A stretch of 64,000 nt of DNA from contig JANDJZ010000032.1 of NCBI GenBank assembly GCA_027943245.1, positions 62,001 through 126,000 on the forward strand. The letters are read 5' to 3'. Both the position numbers and the translations under genes were made by a program. Positions 1,756 through 52,769 of this stretch are shown here, in pieces. The stretch is from Acanthamoeba sp. SK_2022b. Taxonomy: Eukaryota > Discosea > Longamoebia > Acanthamoebidae. The notes under the pieces are model-generated. The model worked only from the letters and a program-made list of their open reading frames with translations, was not told the origin of the DNA and made no database searches. Numbering within the stretch: position 1 is the stretch's first letter; every line of letters starts with the position of its first letter.

Positions 1756-2665
1756 ATGAGGTCCCAAAGATCGGGCATGCGACCCAGCCCGCCACAACCG
1801 CCGCGACCAGGCCCAAGTCGGGCAGTGTTGAACGGAGCGGAATTGGAGGAGAGGGTGGCGCGCATTTTGAAGCATATGGGCAAATGGAACGTCCGACGCA
1901 ACATCATCATGCGTGACAAATACGGGAACACCAGGTAGAGCACGGTCCATTTCCTTCTTTTAAATTTGTACATTTTAATTTCTGAAAAATCATCTGTAGC
2001 GAGATCGATCTGTCGTACGGGCTGTTCTTCCGGCGATACGTCGAGTGTAAGAATATGCCCCGTGTGGAGCTGGAGCACGTGGCCAAGTTCAAGGAGGCAC
2101 GTCTCCCTTTTCCACCTCTCCTCCTTTCATGAACGACGTGGTGCGCCTCGTCAGGAGTTAGGAACCTGTCCTTCGCGTCGTCGCCAGTGTATGTTCGTGA
2201 TAATGATCGCCTTGTCTAATGTCATCACAGGTGCTGAATCTGAACAAGATACCGCCCTCTCGGGGCCTCTTCGTGACGACTGGGTACTACGGCCCGCGAG
2301 CGATTACTATCGGCATCAAGACCATCAACGGAACTGAACTAAAGGTGCTCCAGACACAGAACAATGCGCTCACACACGCACACACAACGCTATGGGTTGG
2401 ATTGCTTGATCTGAGCGTCGTCGCCTGCTGGTGCTGTGCATGAATGATGTGACAGATTTGGGAGGAACAAGTGATGTGGAGGAGCCGAGTGCGACGTTTC
2501 GTGTGGGCCGGCTGCGCGGTGGGGGCCAGTTGGCTGGCCTACTGGGCCTACGGACCGATGTACGGATGGAAGGACGTGGACCGAGCACTGACGCGATTTG
2601 AAACCGACGCACGACGACGTGTGGACAAGCTCAAACGAACAGCCCGCGAGTATTGGCCCTGGTGA
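1756..2665 (+). CDS. RRG7/DUF2034-like restriction-endonuclease-fold protein
   Basis: Four exons (1756-1934, 2000-2096, 2231-2344, 2465-2665) join in frame to about 196 residues. The core has the order expected for the Mrr/RRG7 (DUF2034) nuclease fold: an N-terminal helix (AELEERVARILKHMG), then SEIDLSYGLFFRRYVECKN with the paired acidic Asp and Glu-Cys-Lys positions, then a helix ending in SRGLFVTTGYYGPRA. The tail holds a hydrophobic stretch around GCAVGASWLAYWAYG, probably a membrane anchor. Yeast RRG7 is mitochondrial and needed for respiratory growth; mitochondrial location here is inference. Intron 2 begins with GCACGT and ends in CACAG, so it is a GC-AG intron. An alternative start is Met at 1777. 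Confidence 0.65.
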
Positions 2666-2760
2666 CGTCACGCAAGGCCCACGCAACACCAACAGCGACA
2701 AATAATGAACGTTCATTATTTGATAACTGCACACCTGGTGATCTTTATTATTGCTGATGT

Positions 2761-3440
2761 TCAGAAGAAGCCGCCTGAGAACACCAGCTCCTCGCCCGGC
2801 TGCATCTTGTCAAACAGGTCGCCCAAGTCGAACTGCTCCGGTCTCGCCGTTCCCAACACGTCGTACATCTTCCTCTTTTCGGGAGACATCAACAACTCGT
2901 AGGCTTCCTTGATGTCGTGCCATGCGGCCAGCCTCTGCGTCTTCTCCTCCTGTGTGCTCATCCCAGCACGAAATGAGTCACGCAATGAATGATGAGGAAA
3001 GACGGGGAGCTGTACGTCTGAGAGCGATGCCAGCTTGTCTGGGTGTGATAGAGGAGCGCCTTCGTGCGGTAGGCCTTCTTGATTTGATCTTCTGTGGCAT
3101 CCCTCTCCAGCCCAAGTATACCGTAGTGGTCACTTTTCTTCTGGGAGGCAAGCTGTGGGCAGGACGAGCTATTGGTTGAATCTGGGGTCCTGGTGGCTCG
3201 CTTCTTTCTTCGTCGCTCCTGACAGACTCTCTTGGCAGGCTTGGGTTGAGCGAGGTCCTGAGACCAGCGCACTTTCTTCCTCGCCTCTGCCTCGTACCTC
3301 CGCTTGCGCTTTGGAGTGGGCTCTAGGCCCGCGGTTCCTGGTACCTGTTCACTGGTCTTGCCGCCCTGGCTGACCTTCTTTGCATGTTCAAGCGAGGATG
3401 GACACAAGCAAGTCAACCACACTGGGCAAAGTTGAGAGGC
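2761..3440 (-). pseudogene. DnaJ-like J-domain protein with a frameshift in the HPD motif
   Basis: The upstream exon (about 3440-3016) has a basic, Lys/Arg-rich N-terminus and then a J-domain: SDHYGILGLERDATEDQIKK, AYRTKALLYH. The downstream exon (2949-2761) holds the rest (AAWHDIKEAYELLMSPEKRK) and a short acidic tail ending ELVFSGGFF. The intron is 2950-3015. At 3041-3050 the sequence reads with one extra CA/TG dinucleotide, so Tyr-His is followed by Thr-Gln rather than Pro-Asp. Removing two bases restores HPDK and the frame into the next exon. The HPD triad is what stimulates Hsp70 ATPase, so as written the protein is broken. It could be a true pseudogene, a polymorphism or a sequence error. 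No clear in-frame ATG is seen, so the 5' end is open. Confidence 0.7.
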
Positions 3441-3614
3441 AGCCCGGTAACTCGTCACTTAGAATAAGCCAATCAAAGGCCGGTGCACTACGTCGACGAA
3501 GCTCCCGGCACGGTGATTGGTTGCAAGGCGAAACAGCAGGGTGAGCAGTTGTCCTCAACCCTCTGGTGCCTTCACTTTATCCTCGCACCACCAACCACTC
3601 AACACTAACGCAAC

Positions 3615-4033
3615 ATGCCCCGCTTGCCCACCCCCAAGAAGGGAAGAGGAAAGGCTGTCGCCATCCGCAAGGGGAGACACAAAAGCAACTGGCCAACCTT
3701 TTTGAAGGAACCCTTCCCAAGGGAATGAAGGTAAGTGAGGTGAGGTTCGTCAGGCAGGAGGACGGGACTATTGTGGTGCGTACTCCCATTACATATTAGC
3801 TGTTGCTCCCCTACTAATTGATCTCTGTTGTGTGGTCAACTACCCAGTTCCACATCATAGGAAAGGTGGAACGCAAGCAGAAGGTGTGGGTGTATGGCAA
3901 GGGAAGCTGCTACCACACCAAGGCGTGCTCCCACTGCAACCCCAAACTCGCGACGCAGGTCGATGTTGCAACGGCCAGGGAAGAGATGGGGCGAGTGCCT
4001 TGCAAATACTGTTTCAAGGACGAAGACGACTAA
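3615..4033 (+). CDS. Small Ada-type zinc-binding protein (apparent 1-base frameshift)
   Basis: The second exon (3848-4033) encodes KVERKQKVWVYGKGSCYHTK, then ACSHCN and GRVPCKYCFKDEDD. The spacing Cys/His...Cys-x2-Cys...Cys-x2-Cys after a YH strand resembles the metal-binding domain of bacterial Ada, where Zn is held and a C-terminal PCKxC closes the site. A strong GTAAGTG donor follows Lys-Gly-Met-Lys at 3730 and joins in phase to FHIIGKV. The obvious start is ATG at 3615 (MPRLPTPKKGRGKAVAIRKG), but this frame leaves the downstream frame around the G-run at 3668-3676; one extra G would join them. A first exon elsewhere is possible. Function is unknown; nucleic-acid binding is plausible from the basic N-terminus and zinc module. 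Confidence 0.5.
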
Positions 4034-24475: not shown

Positions 24476-25903
24476 ATGGACATGGAGCAGCCCATCAAGG
24501 TAGCCTACGTTGGGCCCATGCATTTCTACAGCCTTCTGGTGAAGGGAGGTACGTCGTATTGAAGGGGACGATAGGTAGGTGGCCACAGTGCTGTCCTGAC
24601 CCTGCTGGCCACAGAGTTTGTGGTGGTTGACCTTGGCACTGCCGAGCAGTTCGCTCAGGGCAAGCTCCTGGGCGCGCAGCACCTGCCCGAGGGCGCTTCC
24701 AGCTTCGTCGACGACTTTGGCTACGAGCGCCGGGACAAGGTGCTGGCCTACGCCCACTCCGACGTCGTCGCGCCAAGCGACCCGCGTCTTGCTGTCTTCC
24801 ACAAGCAGAAGTACCTCAAGGAGATACTCATCTTGCAAGGTCGGCATCTCTCTATCTCCCACTCCTTTGCTCTTCACTGACTAACCGACGATGGTCTGTC
24901 ACGTCGTCGGTGTGGCAGGTGGCGCGGACGCCTTTGCCGAGCACTATCCGTTTCTGCGGGTCGGGGCTGCGGGCGGAGGCGACGACTTCCTGGTCTACCC
25001 GTCCCAGATCCTGCCCTCGCCCTCGGGCCTCTTCCTCGGATCACAGATCACGACCACCAACAAGAAGGTCTTGCAGGACCTCAAGATAACGTTCGTGTTC
25101 TCTCTATCTCTCCCCCCACACAACACACACACACACAATACACAACACCAGTCTAGGCCATGCTTGCTCACTCGCCAGGTGCCTCTTGGTCCGGTGCAGA
25201 CACATCGTCAACGTGACCAACGAAGTGGTCAACCAGTTCGAGTTCGACGAGGCCCTCGGCATCACGTACCACAGGTCAGGCCTCACAGGTCGCCGTGTGC
25301 GGTTGGGGGAGCAAGGCACGGGGTGCGCTCACATTTGGTGGTGAGGGGACCAGGTGTTCCGTGATGGATGAGGTGACGGAGGACATCTTCCGGTATTTCC
25401 ACAAGACACGCGACCTCATTGACCGAGCGAGAAGCGGCGGTCCACTACCTCTCCCTTTTCGTTTCTTCGTCCTTTCGCTTCGCTCTTTTGTGTTGCTGAC
25501 ATTTGTGCGAGGGCGACGCTCGACAGGCGGCAACGTGCTGGTCCACTGCGCGCAGGGGCGATCCCGGTCGGCCTCCATCGTGACGGCCTACCTCATGCTC
25601 ACCAACCGATGGGATTTTGAGACCGCCTATTCGCACGGTAACCTACCGCCACACATCTTGTTGTCACACATGATGTTTTATTTTCTGTGTTTCTTTTAAT
25701 AAAATATAAATACTTTTTATTCATTTTTCTAGAGATGTTTTGCGTTGGTGTGCCTCATTCTCGTGCCGTGTGTGTTTTCTCAAGTGACCACGCTGCGGGA
25801 CATCGTGCGAGTCAATCCCGGCTTCCGGCAGCAGCTCCTCACGCTAGAAGCAGAGATCACCAACGCCAACGGTGACGACGACACCACTTTTACGTTGCAG
25901 TAG
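24476..25903 (+). CDS. Dual-specificity (MAP-kinase-phosphatase-like) protein with rhodanese-type N-domain
   Basis: Starts at Met 24476 (MDMEQPIKVAYVGPMHFYSL). The first exons form a rhodanese/CH2-like domain (FVVVDLGTAEQFAQGKLLGA, then GGADAFAEHYPFL), which in MAP-kinase phosphatases binds the kinase. The catalytic half follows: GLFLGSQITTTNKKVLQDLK, HIVNVTNEV, a general-acid Asp in SVMDEVTEDIFRYFHKT, and the signature VHCAQGRSRSASIVTAYLM (C-x5-R intact). The last exon (from about 25790) gives a C-terminal helix. The domain order matches MKPs, and all catalytic residues are present, so the enzyme should dephosphorylate phospho-Ser/Thr and phospho-Tyr. It lies tail to tail with the Rab-fusion gene. 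Confidence 0.88.
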
Positions 25904-25963: not shown

Positions 25964-28817
25964 CTACTGCAGACAGCAGTTGGTTTCCTTCTTCTTGGCA
26001 GTCTCGAGGGCCGAAGAGGGGGCGCTGGTGGGCTGGCAGTGGGCGGCGAAGGCGGCCTCGGAGGGAACGTAGGCCGGCGTGGCCATGCCGATCACGGACC
26101 GCCAGCCGCCGGCGATGCGGTTCACCAGCTGGTTGATGGCCTGCTGCACGTTGTCGCCCGTCTTGGCCGAGCACTCAGCGAACACCGCGAACCCCAACTC
26201 CGCCGCCAAGAGCCTGTTTTGTGGGGGGGGGGGCGTGTGTTGGTCGATCGAGCAAACGCAGCGACGCCACACAGACACAATCGATTGTGTACCGCCCCTC
26301 CTCCTCGGTGACGGCTCTCTGGGCATCAAGGTCGCTCTTGCAGCCGATCAGCATCACTGTGCAATTCTCGTGCGCATACCTGCAACGCAGGTCGTTAGCG
26401 CATGACCGTCGTCGTACAACGGTTCGAACAATAACACCACAACACAGCACGCAGCACACGGCACGAGAGAGAGAAAGTGAGAGGAACGAATGCTTACTTA
26501 TGAGTCTCCTCCATCCATCGGGGGACCGATTCAAAGGAGGCCCGGTTGGTGATGTCGTAGGTGATCATTATCCCGTGCGCGCCCCGGTAGTATGACGAAG
26601 TGATCGAGCGGAAGCGCTCGGGCCCGGCCACGTCCTGCATCACCCATTCCGCCACACGCGATTGCCAATGCCTGTCAAGCGCGCACGAACGAAAGCGACG
26701 CACATAGCCGGCAGCCTCGTTTTCTTACCCAGAGTTGGACCTTGACCGTCTCGTCGTGGAGTTGGCACATGACGACCTTGAAATCGACTCCGATTGTGGC
26801 CATGTGGTGGTCAAAGAAGGTGTCCTCCGCATAACGCAGCAACACGCTCGACTTGCCCGCCCCGCTGCTTTTCGTGCTCAGCTACCCTCATTCATGCGTA
26901 ACCAAACGCGCACGCACGCATGCAGTCGTACCAGTTGCCCGAAAAGAGGAGCTTGATGATGCAGCTGTAGTCCGGCGGCGGCTGTCCCTCCCGAGCCACC
27001 GCTTCCGATACGTACCGGCTCTTGTTCTTGCTCCTGTGCGTTGATTGTGCGTATGCGCATGTGCGATTGCGTGACCGTGAGCGAGTGACGACGCACGGGC
27101 GTGTTTTCACGCGGTGGCGTGGTGCGCCGTCGCACCTGTATTGCTTAGCAGCGGCGCGGAGCCAGGTCATGTAGGCGCCTTTCCAGCCGTCCTCTCTACA
27201 GTGTCACACAACACACAACACACACAACAAGAGCCTTCAGGTGCGATTCGAAAGCCTAAGGCGAGCGAGGTTGGCGTACGTGCAGACTTTGAGATGCGCC
27301 CAAGAGGGATGGCCGAGCGGACGCCACAGGCTCTCCTCCCTGGCGACCATCGCAAACGCTCGACACACCTGCCCCACCACCGACGGCCAGACACGCAGCA
27401 ATTTGTTTTGGCGGCGTGGGTCAAAAGAGTCGACAGCGACAAGAACGGCAGAGAACGGAGGGAGAGCAGCGAACCATGGAGACAGCGCACAGCTGCTCGG
27501 CCGTGCCCAGATACGAGAGCATGTGCACCAGCACCTCCTGTATCACCGCCCCACCACCAACCGATGCCCCACAGCTGTCAGAAGCAAAGGCGAGATCGGA
27601 AAGAGGGGAAGGAGAGGTGGGAGGGCAAGCGATGGTCGGGCGCGCGTACGGGAGGGAGCGACCACACGCCGACGGTCTGGTCGGGATGGGCCACCGCGCG
27701 CAGCAGAGACGCCACGGCCTCCTGTTGGAACGCGCTCGCAACCTGGCGTGGGCGCGTGGGAGTGAAGTTTGATTCGAAGCCGGTTCAAAAAAGACAAGAA
27801 AGGAAGAAGGGGAAAGGGGGAGGGGGGTACCTGCGTCGGCGTGCCATATTCGCCCCGTTGTGCCGGCGACGCGCCGTGAGAGAGCAAGAGGGCTACGATT
27901 TGCTGGTGGCCCTTCCTCGACGCTGCGCGTGTTTGTTTGTATGTGCGAATGTGAACGGAAGGGGGTGAACGAACGGTTGGCGCCCGTTTCACACGGTCTG
28001 ACGACTGAAAGACAACACGCGCGCGCTGGTAGGACTGTGAGCGGTACCGTAGTGCAGGGCGGTGTCGCCGTGGGCGTTGGTCGCGTCGATGTTGTTCACC
28101 AGCTTGCGCGAGAGCAGCCAGCGCACGGCTTCCGTGTGGCCACGCAGGCACAACAGGTGGAGCACGCTCTATGCCCACACATAAACGCCACCCACACGCG
28201 TGCACTGTGAGGTGAGCCTCCCCCTCACCCACCTGACGCGTCTACCTCTGCGCAAAGGCGGGCGCGGTGGCGTACCTCGCCCATGGCGTTCTTGGCAGTG
28301 GGGTCGACGCCGGCCTCGATCAGCATCTCGAAGATGGGCGAGTACTGGACCGATGCGCCACCAGCGTCGTCCTTTTGCCGTACCAGTCGGGACAGCGTTG
28401 TAAGCAAATGGAACGGGAGATGGAGTGGACAATGAGGCGTGGCTGGCTTTCGGGAGGGCGGGAGGAGGTGGAGGCTGTACGTTGCGCCAAGCAGGGTTGC
28501 GGTGGTCTTGTTCGGCGAGAATGTGGAGGGCGTTCATGCGGTCGCTTCCAGTCTGCCGGTGAGGATCGGCTCCGGCGTCCAGCAGGAGCTTGACCATGGC
28601 CACGTTCCCCAGCTCAACTGCTTGCATCAACGCCGTCCTGTTTGTCCCACTTTCGTTACCACAAGATGCAACAGGTGGTTTGCAGAGTTATAATGCACCA
28701 GTCGTGGGAGTCAGTGGCGTTTGCGGTGCTCGGATGCTTCTTGAGCAGTTGTCGCACGCGCTGCTCATCATCTCCTCTAATTGCCTGCAGCAGGTCAGCT
28801 TCCCCAGGAGCCTCCAT
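25964..28817 (-). CDS. Ankyrin / F-box / Rab-like GTPase fusion protein, 527 aa
   Basis: Fourteen exons (28817-28699, 28637-28481, 28371-28276, 28168-28048, 27922-27831, 27742-27668, 27537-27475, 27368-27280, 27195-27136, 27033-26932, 26864-26729, 26634-26498, 26379-26293, 26213-25964) sum to 1,584 nt with GT-AG borders and one open frame. Residues about 8-220 are ankyrin repeats ([40 protein letters not shown]). Residues 221-290 are an F-box ([39 protein letters not shown]) with the usual WKGAYMTW follow-on. From about 312 comes a Rab fold: GNCGAGKSS P-loop, TIGVDFK switch I, DVAGPERF switch II, IGCKSDL, ECSAKTG, and a CCLQ prenylation end. Catalytic Gln is Pro, and Asn of NKxD is Cys. Likely an SCF ubiquitin-ligase adaptor tethered to membrane by a degenerate GTPase. 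Confidence 0.85.
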
Positions 28818-30265
28818 CTTTTACGATTTTTTTCAAAAAAAAAAGACCCAAGCTGAGGTGGGGAAACACCTCCCTCGTTCAGTTCATTCCCATCAAACTA
28901 AACCTGGTAAAATCTGGGAGACACTCGAACGAGCGCTCTGCGCAAGCATTCACCACGAGAGTTACTCCTCCGCTTACTTAGCGATATTGAGACGTACCCC
29001 AGGAAACGGCATGCGTGAGACGGCCAACAGGCGTCACTCAGTGGGCCGGCCATCTGTAGTCGGCTGTCCTTACAGTGACCAAGCCAACAGCTCTCAGTTA
29101 CCCCATTGCTGGCGCTATGATGCTCGGATCCACACTGTGATCGCCGTGGACGTAGCAAAGCAACAGAAGTTGTGAAGGAATTTTTTGGCTTTCTTGACTT
29201 CGTCTGCAAGGTGGTTCATCATAATGCATCAGCGTATTGGTGGCATTACGACACGCACTCTCAAGGACATGGCCACCATCAGCACCGTGGGTTGGCTTGT
29301 CTGCATACGTAGCCACAGCGCTCACTGTTAGTAAAGTGGTTTTGTCACTCCCACAAGCACGCCCGGTGCTAGCCGTTCAACAAGAAGGCCTACTTCAATA
29401 CACGCATTCACTCCCAAGACTACAACCACGCCGTCGAGCCTTCTACAACCAGAGGCGCCTCAGGCCCTGAGCCAGACTGCATGAGAGACCACGGCAGATC
29501 TTGATCTAGGCAGCAGTGAGGTCACTGCTGGCCAGAACAACAATAGATCTCTCTCAGGCCAAGGACAGTCATCGCCACTGCTGCCGCGTACGCTCCCACC
29601 TCCCTTGGTAGGCGCCTCTACCCCACACTTGAGGGCGGAGTCGAGACGGTGGAGGAGCAACTACACCACAGCAGGCTCCTCAAGTCCGCCGAGAAGATGC
29701 TCTCGCCCGCAGTCGGGCCGATTGTCGTGGTTGACTGCGCCTTGGTTGGTGGGGCTAGTTGAGGCAACCAGCAAGACTATGGGCCACCAATGGCCAATGC
29801 GCATCTTCCACACGAGGACGCACATTCGTGGTAGATTCTCAGCAGCCGCTTCTGTTGGTGGCCGATATTGAGGGTGGACGATTTGCCATTGGTCAGGTGA
29901 GGCACCATCCTCACCTTTTCGCCCGCACATTCGAGTACCACCTGCTGGCATCCCATACTATGAATAGCGCGCCAACCACCGATGAGCAAGAAACCCTCCG
30001 TTCCCAACCGTCCGGACCGTCGTAATAACGTCAAGAATGTCAGCTAACACAACGAGGCATAGCTGGGATTTGAAGAGGAACGGATTTCGTCCGAGCCATC
30101 GCAATCGCCCACCAATGAGGGCGCAAGCCGAAGCAGCCAGGTGCTTCGAAATTTCGATTGTGTGTGCCAGCGAGGGGATGACTTCGGACAGCTGGGTCCT
30201 GTTTCTTATCTTCTTTTCCTACCCTTACACACAGCCGCTTCGGTGAGCCAGCTGCCTCCCGCAAC
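28818..30265. other. 1.4-kb intergenic region without a supported gene
   Basis: CpG content is normal, unlike the two depleted blocks. Short open stretches occur. One on the plus strand near 29560-29760 reads with coding-like composition (GRRLYPTLEGGVETVEEQL), but stops surround it and no family is recognised. It may hold a decayed gene, plus the upstream regions of the fusion gene and the bZIP gene. Confidence 0.5.
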
Positions 30266-31502
30266 ATGCACCGCCACATCTCTTCTGCCGCAGACTTCAT
30301 GAGCCCTCCGTTCTCCCCTGCCCCTGGCCTCTCCTACGGCGCTCCGCCCCAGCAGCAGATTAATGGCGCCCGCGCCGCCCCCAAGTACGCGTCCCTTGAG
30401 TCCTTCGAGCCCACTTCGTTCCTCGACGCTGGCTTGGGCACGGAGGATTTCTTCTCGCCCTTCCTCAACCCTGACTTCCCCATCGACATCAGCCTCCCCC
30501 TCCAGCATTTGGGCGACAGCGGTACGCGTCTTTTCCGACTTATTTCTCCAAGATCTTGCGAACATGTTCGCATTTGTTATTTTTCTTTATCGAGGGAGAG
30601 ATGGGGATCAGATCGAGCGACCCATTGCATGTCTTTAATCGATCTCTGTCCTTATATCACACACAATACAGTCATGCAATCGCAAGCGCCTCTTATGCAA
30701 GTGGCCCAGGGTGCCGGCGTCAGGAGGAACCCCAAGCTGGCCGCCAAGAGGAAGCTCGAGGCCGCCGCCAAGGCCAGGCAGCCCCAGCAGCAGGCCCAGC
30801 CCCAGCAGCTGCTCCCCATGCAGCAGCAGCCCCAGACCCAGGCCCAGCAGCAGGGCAAGGCCCCGTTGATGCCCATGGCCCCGGCTCCCCAGTCCACCAC
30901 GAACACCTCGTCCACCATGCGCCCCTCTTCGTCGCTCGGCATGTCCCAGCCCTGCTACGTCGACTCCCCGCCCAGCGGTAGCTGCGACCAGGGCGAGGAC
31001 GACTACTACGGCGGCGAGGAGCCCACCAACAAGAGGCAGAAGCGGTTGGTCAAGAACAGGCAGGCCGCCCAGCTCTTCCGTAAGGTTAGTCGACGACCTC
31101 CCTTCTCTTGCTTGCCAGCAAGTAGCGCCTCGAAGTAGTCGGCTGACCCGCTCTCTCTTTTTCTCTACTCCACTACAGCGTCAGAAGCAGTACATCTCCG
31201 ACCTGGAGAACAAGGTGGCCGAGGTAACCAACAAGAACATCGCGCTCATGGCCAAGGTCGACGTGCTCGTCACCGAGAACCAGCTCGTCAAGGACCAGCT
31301 TAAGTACCTGCGCACGTTTGTCGTGTCGGCCCTCGAGCAGGCCTTCCCCCCGCAGAAGTACGGCGAGATGCAGCAGCAGCTCGGCGACATCGGCCTCCAC
31401 GACGGTCCCAAGAAGGAAGAGTCCACGGCCACCGCTGCCAACCCCACCATCATCTCCTCGTCTCCATCATCGTCTCCGGCTCCCTCGACGGAAGGCAAGT
31501 GA
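30266..31502 (+). CDS. bZIP transcription factor
   Basis: Three exons. The N-terminus is Pro/Gln/Ser-rich with an acidic, aromatic patch (DFFSPFLNPDFPIDISL) that resembles an activation domain. A Gln-rich linker follows. The basic region spans the last intron: KRLVKNRQAAQLFRK joined to RQKQYISDLENKVAEV, which matches N-x7-R/K of bZIP proteins. Leucine-zipper heptads continue through NIALMAKVDVLVTENQLV. The first intron is about 30523-30672, the second about 31085-31179. The C-terminus is Ser/Thr-rich. It should bind DNA as a dimer in the nucleus; the target site and partner are unknown. Start Met 30266 is the first ATG of the open frame. Confidence 0.9.
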
Positions 31503-51500: not shown

Positions 51501-52769
51501 TGAACCGCAGAGGAGGACAGGCTGGCCGGGGCAGGGTCTCACCGGGGGTCAGTGCAGGTGTCGGCACCGTCAATGTCTTCGACATGCTGCTTGGGGCAGA
51601 GGAGGACGAGGCGATGAAGCCCAGCGGTGTTGAACGAGGGGCGCGCCGCAGGAGGAACAGACACAAGGTTAAGGCTGCTCCATCAGAGGTGATGCAGAGC
51701 GACGACGAGCCTGCGCCCCTACAGATAGTCTCCATGACCCCCCAGTCGGAAGCAATCGCACTCTTCAACACAGTTGACGACTACGTGCTCTCGCTCATCT
51801 TCTCCCAACTGAGTCACGGGCCGACACTTGCTGGCATGCGACTGGTTTGCAGCTCGGCTCTCAGATAGGCAGGGAGGACATAACCCGACTCACTCTAAGG
51901 GCACCGTAGGTGTGCAGGCGATGGCGGAGCGTGATCGATGAGGACAAGCGCCTGTGGAAGCAGCTATTGTTGATAGACTTCAAGTGGCGCAAGCGCAGAG
52001 GCAAGGGCAGTAGCAAGAAGAACAAGAAGCGGGAGCAGGTCAGCTACCACGAGCAATACGTCACCCTCTACAAGGCGAACCAGGTACCGCCGAGCTCAGG
52101 TTACATTGCGTGGTGGCAAAGTGAGTTGAGCAGCATGCGTGGGATGCGATAGATCCGAGAAGACCTTGCCCGACAGAGGCAACAGCAGAAGATAGCCAAG
52201 ACTTCTCGGCTCATGCGCAACGTTCGTGCCATCCCCCACGTCCAAACCCGTAAGCTCGGTCTCATCTTTCGCTTCGGACGTACTTGGAGCAGTTGGTGGC
52301 TTTAGCGATGATGTTACAGCTGCCCAGGTTCCAAGACAAGCGGCATCCGTGGCTGTCTTGCACCCACCCCGAGGACAGGTACGTGAGGACCAGTAATCAA
52401 GACGACCGCCTGCCATTCTGCTCCACCACCCACCAATGTGGCCTCCCTCTCCCCAGGCTGGACGTGTCGGAGGAGGCCACGAGCGGCTACTTTGTCCCGA
52501 CGGGCCCGGTCCGATGGTGCTTGTGTTCGGCCTGCGGGGCCGAGCTGACAATCGTCCAGCCTGCCGAGTGGCGGCAGAGGTGGCCCGCGATGCTGGAATG
52601 GACGCGGTACATCGCGGTGGAGCGCCGCAAGCTCTTCGAGGTCGCCTTCCGCGTCGTGCGCTTGGAGCTCGGGGCGTCGGACGACGCCTACCCCGACAGG
52701 GTGCAGCAGGCCTACGCGCTCTACGCCTCCTACCTCCAGCAAGTCGTGACGGCCACAGCCGGTCAGTGA
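51500..52769 (+). CDS. F-box protein
   Basis: Met at 51500 (MNRRGGQAGRGRVSPG). A basic N-terminus precedes the F-box, which spans an intron: VDDYVLSLIFSQLSHGPTLA, GMRLVCRRWRSVIDEDKRLW, KQLLLIDFKWRKRR. The donor after CGACTG at about 51845 and the acceptor before GTGTGCAGG at about 51908 restore the VCRRWR step. Later exons give a basic helix (IREDLARQRQQQKIAKTSRL), a Cys-containing strand pair (WCLCSACGAELTIVQPAEWR) and a C-terminal helical part ending LQQVVTATAGQ. F-box proteins link substrates to Skp1-Cullin1 ubiquitin ligases. No known substrate-binding repeat is seen. It is convergent with NDUFAF5. Confidence 0.78.

Follow-up and report, generated by a model that had tools for sequence, protein, structure and literature searches.

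Small GTPases that carry a cullin adaptor within the same polypeptide chain are already known. The SOCS box of Rab40 is described as unique among Rabs; the protein works with Cullin5 and "ubiquitinates its effectors", which makes the effectors its substrates (PMC10509765). RhoBTB proteins carry BTB domains and work with Cullin3 (PMC4931677). For protists, F-box-ARF, BTB-ARF and Rab-BTB-BACK-Arf proteins as well as an Arf joined with a 2OG-Fe(II) oxygenase have been reported, and the authors read the ARF fusions as recurrent recruitment to ubiquitin circuits (PMC8358228); the general idea of a GTPase fused to a cullin adaptor is therefore already in print. Moreover, in Acanthamoebae ankyrin repeats can occur in F-box proteins, and Legionella AnkB, which combines ankyrin repeats and an F-box with a farnesylated CaaX end, acts via SCF (Skp1-Cul1-F-box) on a membrane in amoebae and is argued to have more likely been acquired from amoebal hosts (PMC7830128). 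Ank-Ras proteins are listed in Legionella species (PMC4256840). An F-box-carrying Rab was not met in our literature searches, which covered few subscription papers, in line with an earlier sequence-only reading of the locus that knew of none; likewise, a term search of the main text of a Dictyostelid GTPase survey returned no mention of F-boxes (PMC8923023).

We analyzed a 64,000-nucleotide stretch of Acanthamoeba DNA (the window) which contains a gene whose single product unites ankyrin repeats with an F-box and a Rab-family GTPase domain. What appears to be new is the occurrence of F-box and Rab in one chain, beside the known fusions of GTPases with cullin adaptors; the function is predicted. 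The features of the gene are given below, together with their counterparts in a second copy (contig C110), a diverged paralogue (contig C554) and two database relatives (P0001 and P0002).

25964..28817, minus strand: coding region of the Ank-F-box-Rab gene, 14 exons (splice model; spliced alignment to P0002; same exons in C110)
28817-28699, 28637-28481, 28371-28276, 28168-28048, 27922-27831, minus strand: exons 1-5
27742-27650, 27537-27475, 27368-27280, 27195-27136, 27033-26932, minus strand: exons 6-10
26864-26729, 26634-26498, 26379-26293, 26213-25964, minus strand: exons 11-14
27674..28814, minus strand: ankyrin repeats, residues about 2-218, exons 1-6 (Pfam Ank_2 2e-28, Ank 5.3e-24)
27321..27664, minus strand: F-box, residues 222-263, interrupted by two introns (Pfam F-box-like PF12937, 47.0 bits, cut-off 24.3)
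26932..27195, minus strand: linker exons 9-10 with WKGAYMTW, from the F-box to the first strand of the Rab domain (kept in P0002 and C554)
26114..26954, minus strand: Rab-family GTPase domain, residues 324-484 (Pfam Ras, 172.2 bits, cut-off 21.6)
26865..26931, minus strand: intron 10, within the P-loop GNCGAGKS (same place and phase in C554)
26617..26634, minus strand: G3 motif DVAGPE, proline replacing the catalytic glutamine (proline also in C110, P0001 and P0002)
26331..26342, minus strand: G4 motif CKSD replacing NKxD (CKSD in C110; CKRD in P0001 and P0002; NKAD in C554)
25967..25978, minus strand: C-terminal CCLQ, CaaX-type, predicted lipid anchor (CCLQ in C110 and P0002; CVLQ in C554)

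The order of domains in the encoded protein is ankyrin repeats, F-box, Rab-family domain and C-terminal CCLQ. The proposal of the sequence-only reading that all three domains reside in a single protein stands: They lie in one frame, and a Pfam HMM search finds Ank_2, F-box-like and Ras above their cut-offs in that chain. By contrast, PF00646, an older F-box model, remains slightly below its own (18.8 vs 20.5 bits); the closest solved chains of the F-box part are FBXL5 (E 1.5e-4) and SKP2. The GTPase part has a Rab1a as its best solved relative (E 2.3e-52), followed by Rab3, Ypt1, Rab35, Sec4, Rab8 and others among the best 60 of 1298 PDB matches; those of the 60 that fall on the GTPase part (residues 306-500) bear the names Rab, Ypt1 or Sec4, with the exceptions of 1zbd_A ("Rabphilin-3A") and 4rke_A ("GH01619p"). 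Together with the Ras-superfamily fold and the sequence IGVDFK and the YYRGAHG region, which we take to be Rab-type motifs, this identifies the domain as Rab-related, and the Pfam scores (Ras 172.2 bits vs Arf 48.3 bits) place it outside the ARF family. No SOCS-box family occurs among the 12 Pfam families found up to E 0.01, and the Pfam search of the protein returned no BTB family, its nearest solved relatives being Rabs.

Compared with the described systems, the protein resembles Rab40 in combining a Rab, odd GTPase residues and a cullin-adaptor module in one chain; however, the module is a SOCS box for Cullin5 in Rab40 and an F-box for a predicted Cul1 here, it is C-terminal in Rab40 and N-terminal here, where a SOCS box was not found, and Rab40 arose in bilaterians whereas this protein is amoebal. 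RhoBTB likewise unites an atypical small GTPase with a cullin adaptor, but with Rho instead of Rab and BTB instead of F-box. To our knowledge, Rab40 has no ankyrin repeats and RhoBTB no CaaX end of the kind found here. The F-box-ARF and BTB-ARF proteins are also lineage-specific fusions that pair a small GTPase with an F-box or a BTB domain, yet the GTPase of F-box-ARF belongs to the ARF family and not to Rab, Ras or Rho. Legionella AnkB has ankyrin repeats, an F-box and a CaaX-type end in common with the protein; it differs in being bacterial, in having its F-box N-terminal with the ankyrin repeats after it, and in that no GTPase domain is described for it. An F-box-Rab would be the Cullin1 version of the pairs Rab40-Cullin5 and RhoBTB-Cullin3 that has arisen in an amoeba. 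The gene also shows that amoebae themselves have Ank-F-box proteins with a CaaX-like end, which would be a natural comparison for AnkB.

The gene model is well constrained. The location on the minus strand, the 14 exons, the ATG at 28817 and the stop at 25964 had been read correctly from the sequence, as had the GT-AG borders (13/13 introns) and the unbroken frame. The splice model encodes 533 residues plus stop instead of the 528 codons counted before; the exon borders behind that count were not given. Our borders are backed twice, by a spliced alignment of P0002 to the genomic sequence with free choice of introns and by the copy on C110, with the same 14 exons in each case. Intron 10 ends in a doubled acceptor, AAGCAG (26870-26865), which is kept in C110; its second AG yields the GxxxxGKS P-loop GNCGAGKS. 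Splicing to the first AG instead would add a serine and break the GxxxxGK spacing, which might serve as a splice switch.

When residues 200-350 were compared with 5.8 billion proteins, two of 388 candidates were matches, P0002 and P0001, and both combine ankyrin repeats, F-box and Ras. P0002 (537 aa; contigs of up to 2.6 kb) is intronless, shows the same order of domains from end to end and is identical to the window protein in 363/532 aligned residues. By our own reading, P0001 passes into unspliced sequence where introns 3 and 13 would lie, lacks introns 4-12 and does not extend to introns 1-2, so that it looks like a partly spliced form; we infer that both sequences are RNA-derived contigs. 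The worry that the locus gives two separate mRNAs is thereby answered from relatives, namely the intronless P0002 with all domains and P0001, and not from a transcript of this strain. The Ank-F-box-Rab fusion is a real, conserved and duplicated gene. A viral origin was also considered: One scan of viral contigs with P0002 gave 10 pattern matches, none of which was confirmed. An AlphaFold2 model built from P0002 and P0001 had a mean pLDDT of 37 and was set aside as unusable.

The genome (44.9 Mb, 1129 contigs) was searched for copies, paralogues and neighbours. Its actophorin-like gene, put together from two frames, agrees with the Acanthamoeba actophorin chain 1ahq in 133/137 residues, in keeping with an origin from Acanthamoeba or a very close relative. 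The Ank-F-box-Rab gene has a second copy, built of the same 14 exons, at C110:77006-80034, corresponding to window positions 28856-25811, and 515/533 residues are identical. Within the 6 kb compared, the similarity starts 39 bp ahead of the ATG and ends about 150 bp beyond the stop, and 2 kb of sequence upstream of the gene (window 29400-31400) match only themselves and one 74-base stretch on contig C598. Because the match ends near the edges of the gene and the upstream region is largely unmatched, we rejected a haplotype duplicate or allele block; C110 looks like a gene-sized duplication that kept its introns and has almost no flank in common with the window. The coding sequences are 97.1% identical and the aligned introns 93.3% (1101/1180). 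Purifying selection acts between the two copies, with a dN/dS of 0.21 (NG86) or 0.14 (YN00) for the whole gene, 0.19 or 0.10 for the Rab domain and 0.13-0.18 for the Ank region. The F-box plus linker (residues 220-318) has values of 0.76 (NG86) and 0.63 (YN00) that rest on very few changes, and the F-box codons themselves are nucleotide-identical. The diverged paralogue on C554 (544 residues; 242/519 aligned residues identical to the window protein; two GC-AG introns required by the model) has 10/11 introns at the positions and phases of the window gene, including the P-loop intron, reads WKGTYIRW where P0002 keeps the linker motif WKGAYMTW, and passes both PF12937 and PF00646.

We then consider the catalytic motifs of the GTPase domain. 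The P-loop GxxxxGK[ST] is intact across the members (GNCGAGKS in the window; GDCGAGKS, GDHGVGKS and GHEQAGKS). In contrast to the DTAGQE of Rabs, the switch-II glutamine is missing from all five: G3 reads DVAGPE in the window and C110, DTAGPE in P0001 and P0002, and DWARGGE(RF) in C554. The NKxD of Rabs is likewise replaced in the window, C110, P0001 and P0002, but the change in G4 is not common to the whole family since C554 has NKAD. Because of the missing glutamine, the domain is best described from its sequence as a Rab by descent and not as a canonical cycling Rab. As a control, a pattern search of the fetched loci gave 13 distinct G3 motifs, a count that overlooks split or odd motifs including those of F-box-Rab and F-box-Rho; 11 of the 13, F-box-Ras among them, have the glutamine, one has M and one T. 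The glutamine is also present in 7/8 intronless GTPases, the eighth (L008) having a glutamate. Loss of the glutamine is thus uncommon in this genome and yet not confined to F-box fusions. The corresponding exchange in HRAS, Q61P, lowers the rate of GTP hydrolysis to about one eighth of the wild-type value and is not transforming (PMC6813200). The proline therefore need not mean a constitutively active protein, and by this analogy we predict slow hydrolysis of GTP by the Rab domain, not a fully locked state. Additionally, CKxD may weaken guanine binding and leave the domain nucleotide-poor.

The C-terminal CCLQ had been taken for a Rab-type end. A lipidation-type terminus with a prenylatable cysteine is indeed present, but the motif reads better as a CaaX box ending in Q, because the paralogue ends in CVLQ and the F-box-Rho model described below in CALQ, with one cysteine each. 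A glutamine in the X position favours farnesyltransferase. CaaX-like ends occur in 7/8 of the intronless GTPases (six end in F, one in M and none in Q), while L008 has none.

To place the gene among other GTPases of the genome, 120 GTPase clusters were drawn from most of the listed matches (171 in one search), with the window's own left out, and 31 of the 120 were scanned for F-boxes, so that the number of fusions is a lower bound: We accept five genes, those of the window, C110, C554, C737 and C773, and keep C316 as a candidate. Among the 12 fetched stretches, C110, C554, C737 and C773 were accepted as one gene each and C316 is the candidate; the other seven were rejected. The F-box lies about 2.5 kb before the GTPase in C629, downstream within its own long frame in C445, and after the Arf stop with its own ATG in C86; C409, C896 and C348 have no F-box match, and C248 has an F-box alone. 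Twenty further GTPase neighbourhoods, taken in list order, yielded no same-strand upstream F-box above noise, the matches being an upstream one in L081 at E 0.45, one of two pieces on the other strand in L080 and a downstream one in L083. At C316 (L036 about 2360-3740), an F-box exon starting MEILPAEIW precedes a degenerate Rab-like domain with the terminus SCVVS; this may be another F-box-GTPase fusion, its model being unclosed.

Two of the accepted genes pair the F-box with GTPases other than Rab; Pfam assigns both to the Ras family, and by our own reading they appear to be Ras-type (C737) and Rho-type (C773). Neither model has a Pfam ankyrin match. In the F-box-Ras gene (L034 1377-3624), F-box and Ras P-loop share a single open exon (L034 1377-2687), and joining them therefore needs no splicing. 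The model of 607 residues passes Pfam for F-box and Ras and has no CaaX end. The related protein P0003 (458 aa, 11 member sequences) has the same order of domains, is 74% identical over the best local alignment, which covers 46% of the searched region, and reads through the places of the later introns of C737. Both proteins share the P-loop GASGVDKS and SHAD in place of NKxD while retaining the glutamine; the altered P-loop and the lost NKxD suggest a pseudo-GTPase. The F-box-Rho model (L035 1300-3717; 563+ residues, start not found) comprises a 2OG-Fe(II) oxygenase, an F-box and a Rho-type domain in which DTAGHPEYD replaces DTAGQ, with histidine at the position of the catalytic glutamine. Having no database relative among 5661 candidates, it is a genomic model only. 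The presence of F-box-Ras and F-box-Rho in the same genome indicates repeated recruitment, and the three kinds of fusion together suggest that GTPase-cullin adaptors are a recurring design.

How might such a protein work? F-boxes recruit Skp1-Cul1. The protein is likely a CaaX-anchored SCF adaptor whose targets would be picked by the Rab domain, the ankyrin repeats or both. In this scheme the F-box would recruit Skp1-Cul1, while lipidation of the CaaX cysteine would tether the protein to a membrane; the Rab domain would bind nucleotide by its P-loop and, without the switch-II glutamine, stay longer with GTP, which would keep Rab effectors beside the ligase, and the ankyrin repeats would bring other partners next to it. 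We adopt this reading because three domains far above Pfam cut-offs in one chain are conserved in relatives, and because of purifying selection, the conserved proline, the F-box-Ras and F-box-Rho genes, the Skp1-family (3 matches) and cullin genes present in this genome and the precedent of Rab40. It is weakened by the dN/dS of 0.76/0.63 for F-box plus linker, by PF00646 below its cut-off, by the behaviour of HRAS Q61P and the possible loss of guanine binding through CKxD, and by the glutamate of L008, the M and T pattern matches and the NKAD of C554. The altered motifs predict that the GTPase domain acts as bait rather than switch. To the specific version, a membrane-anchored SCF adaptor whose slow-hydrolyzing Rab domain would hold targets for ubiquitination, we give an even chance. 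That Acanthamoeba possesses a whole SCF class, in which F-boxes were repeatedly fused to Rab, Ras or Rho with the switch disabled and the frozen GTPase baits pathway partners for ubiquitination at the membrane, is put forward tentatively, as something we would rather doubt than assume.

Ankyrin repeats are common substrate binders. They might be the substrate receptor of an otherwise ordinary Ank-F-box ligase adaptor in which the Rab domain serves only as an address or as a nucleotide-controlled on/off switch; Ank-F-box proteins are reported to occur in Acanthamoebae (PMC7830128), and purifying selection acts on the Ank region (dN/dS 0.13-0.18). However, F-box-Ras and F-box-Rho, without Pfam ankyrin matches, still pair the F-box with an altered GTPase, which suggests that the functional partner common to them is the GTPase domain, and a cycling switch fits poorly with altered catalytic motifs, so that we consider this explanation rather unlikely. 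The F-box could also control the GTPase in cis, the Rab domain being cargo and the F-box setting its turnover. Many F-box proteins are autoubiquitinated, and fusion in cis would be the simplest coupling of a Rab to SCF; but both the ankyrin repeats and a change of catalytic motifs that was afterwards conserved would then go unexplained, and we judge this quite improbable. We assign an equally low probability to an F-box that no longer serves SCF and, within a divergent multidomain Rab, now acts as a structural or protein-protein module: Skp1 binding is predicted only and PF00646 is under its cut-off (18.8 vs 20.5 bits), yet PF12937 lies well above its own, C554 passes both models and the F-box codons of window and C110 are identical. 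Finally, two neighbouring genes joined by the reader, or a mis-assembly, have a negligible probability, for although the evidence is genomic and from relatives instead of this strain's transcripts, nothing was found in their favour and they are ruled out by the contigs P0002 and P0001, the same 14 exons on C110, the introns shared with C554 and the absence of an in-frame methionine between M286 and the P-loop.

Two observations concern other parts of the window. On the plus strand, positions 25217-25699 hold an open frame with HCAQGRSRS, presumably a dual-specificity-phosphatase-like signature, as a convergent neighbour of the Ank-F-box-Rab gene. Moreover, a home-made profile gave a partial F-box-like match at 51910-51966 (E 5e-4), also on the plus strand.
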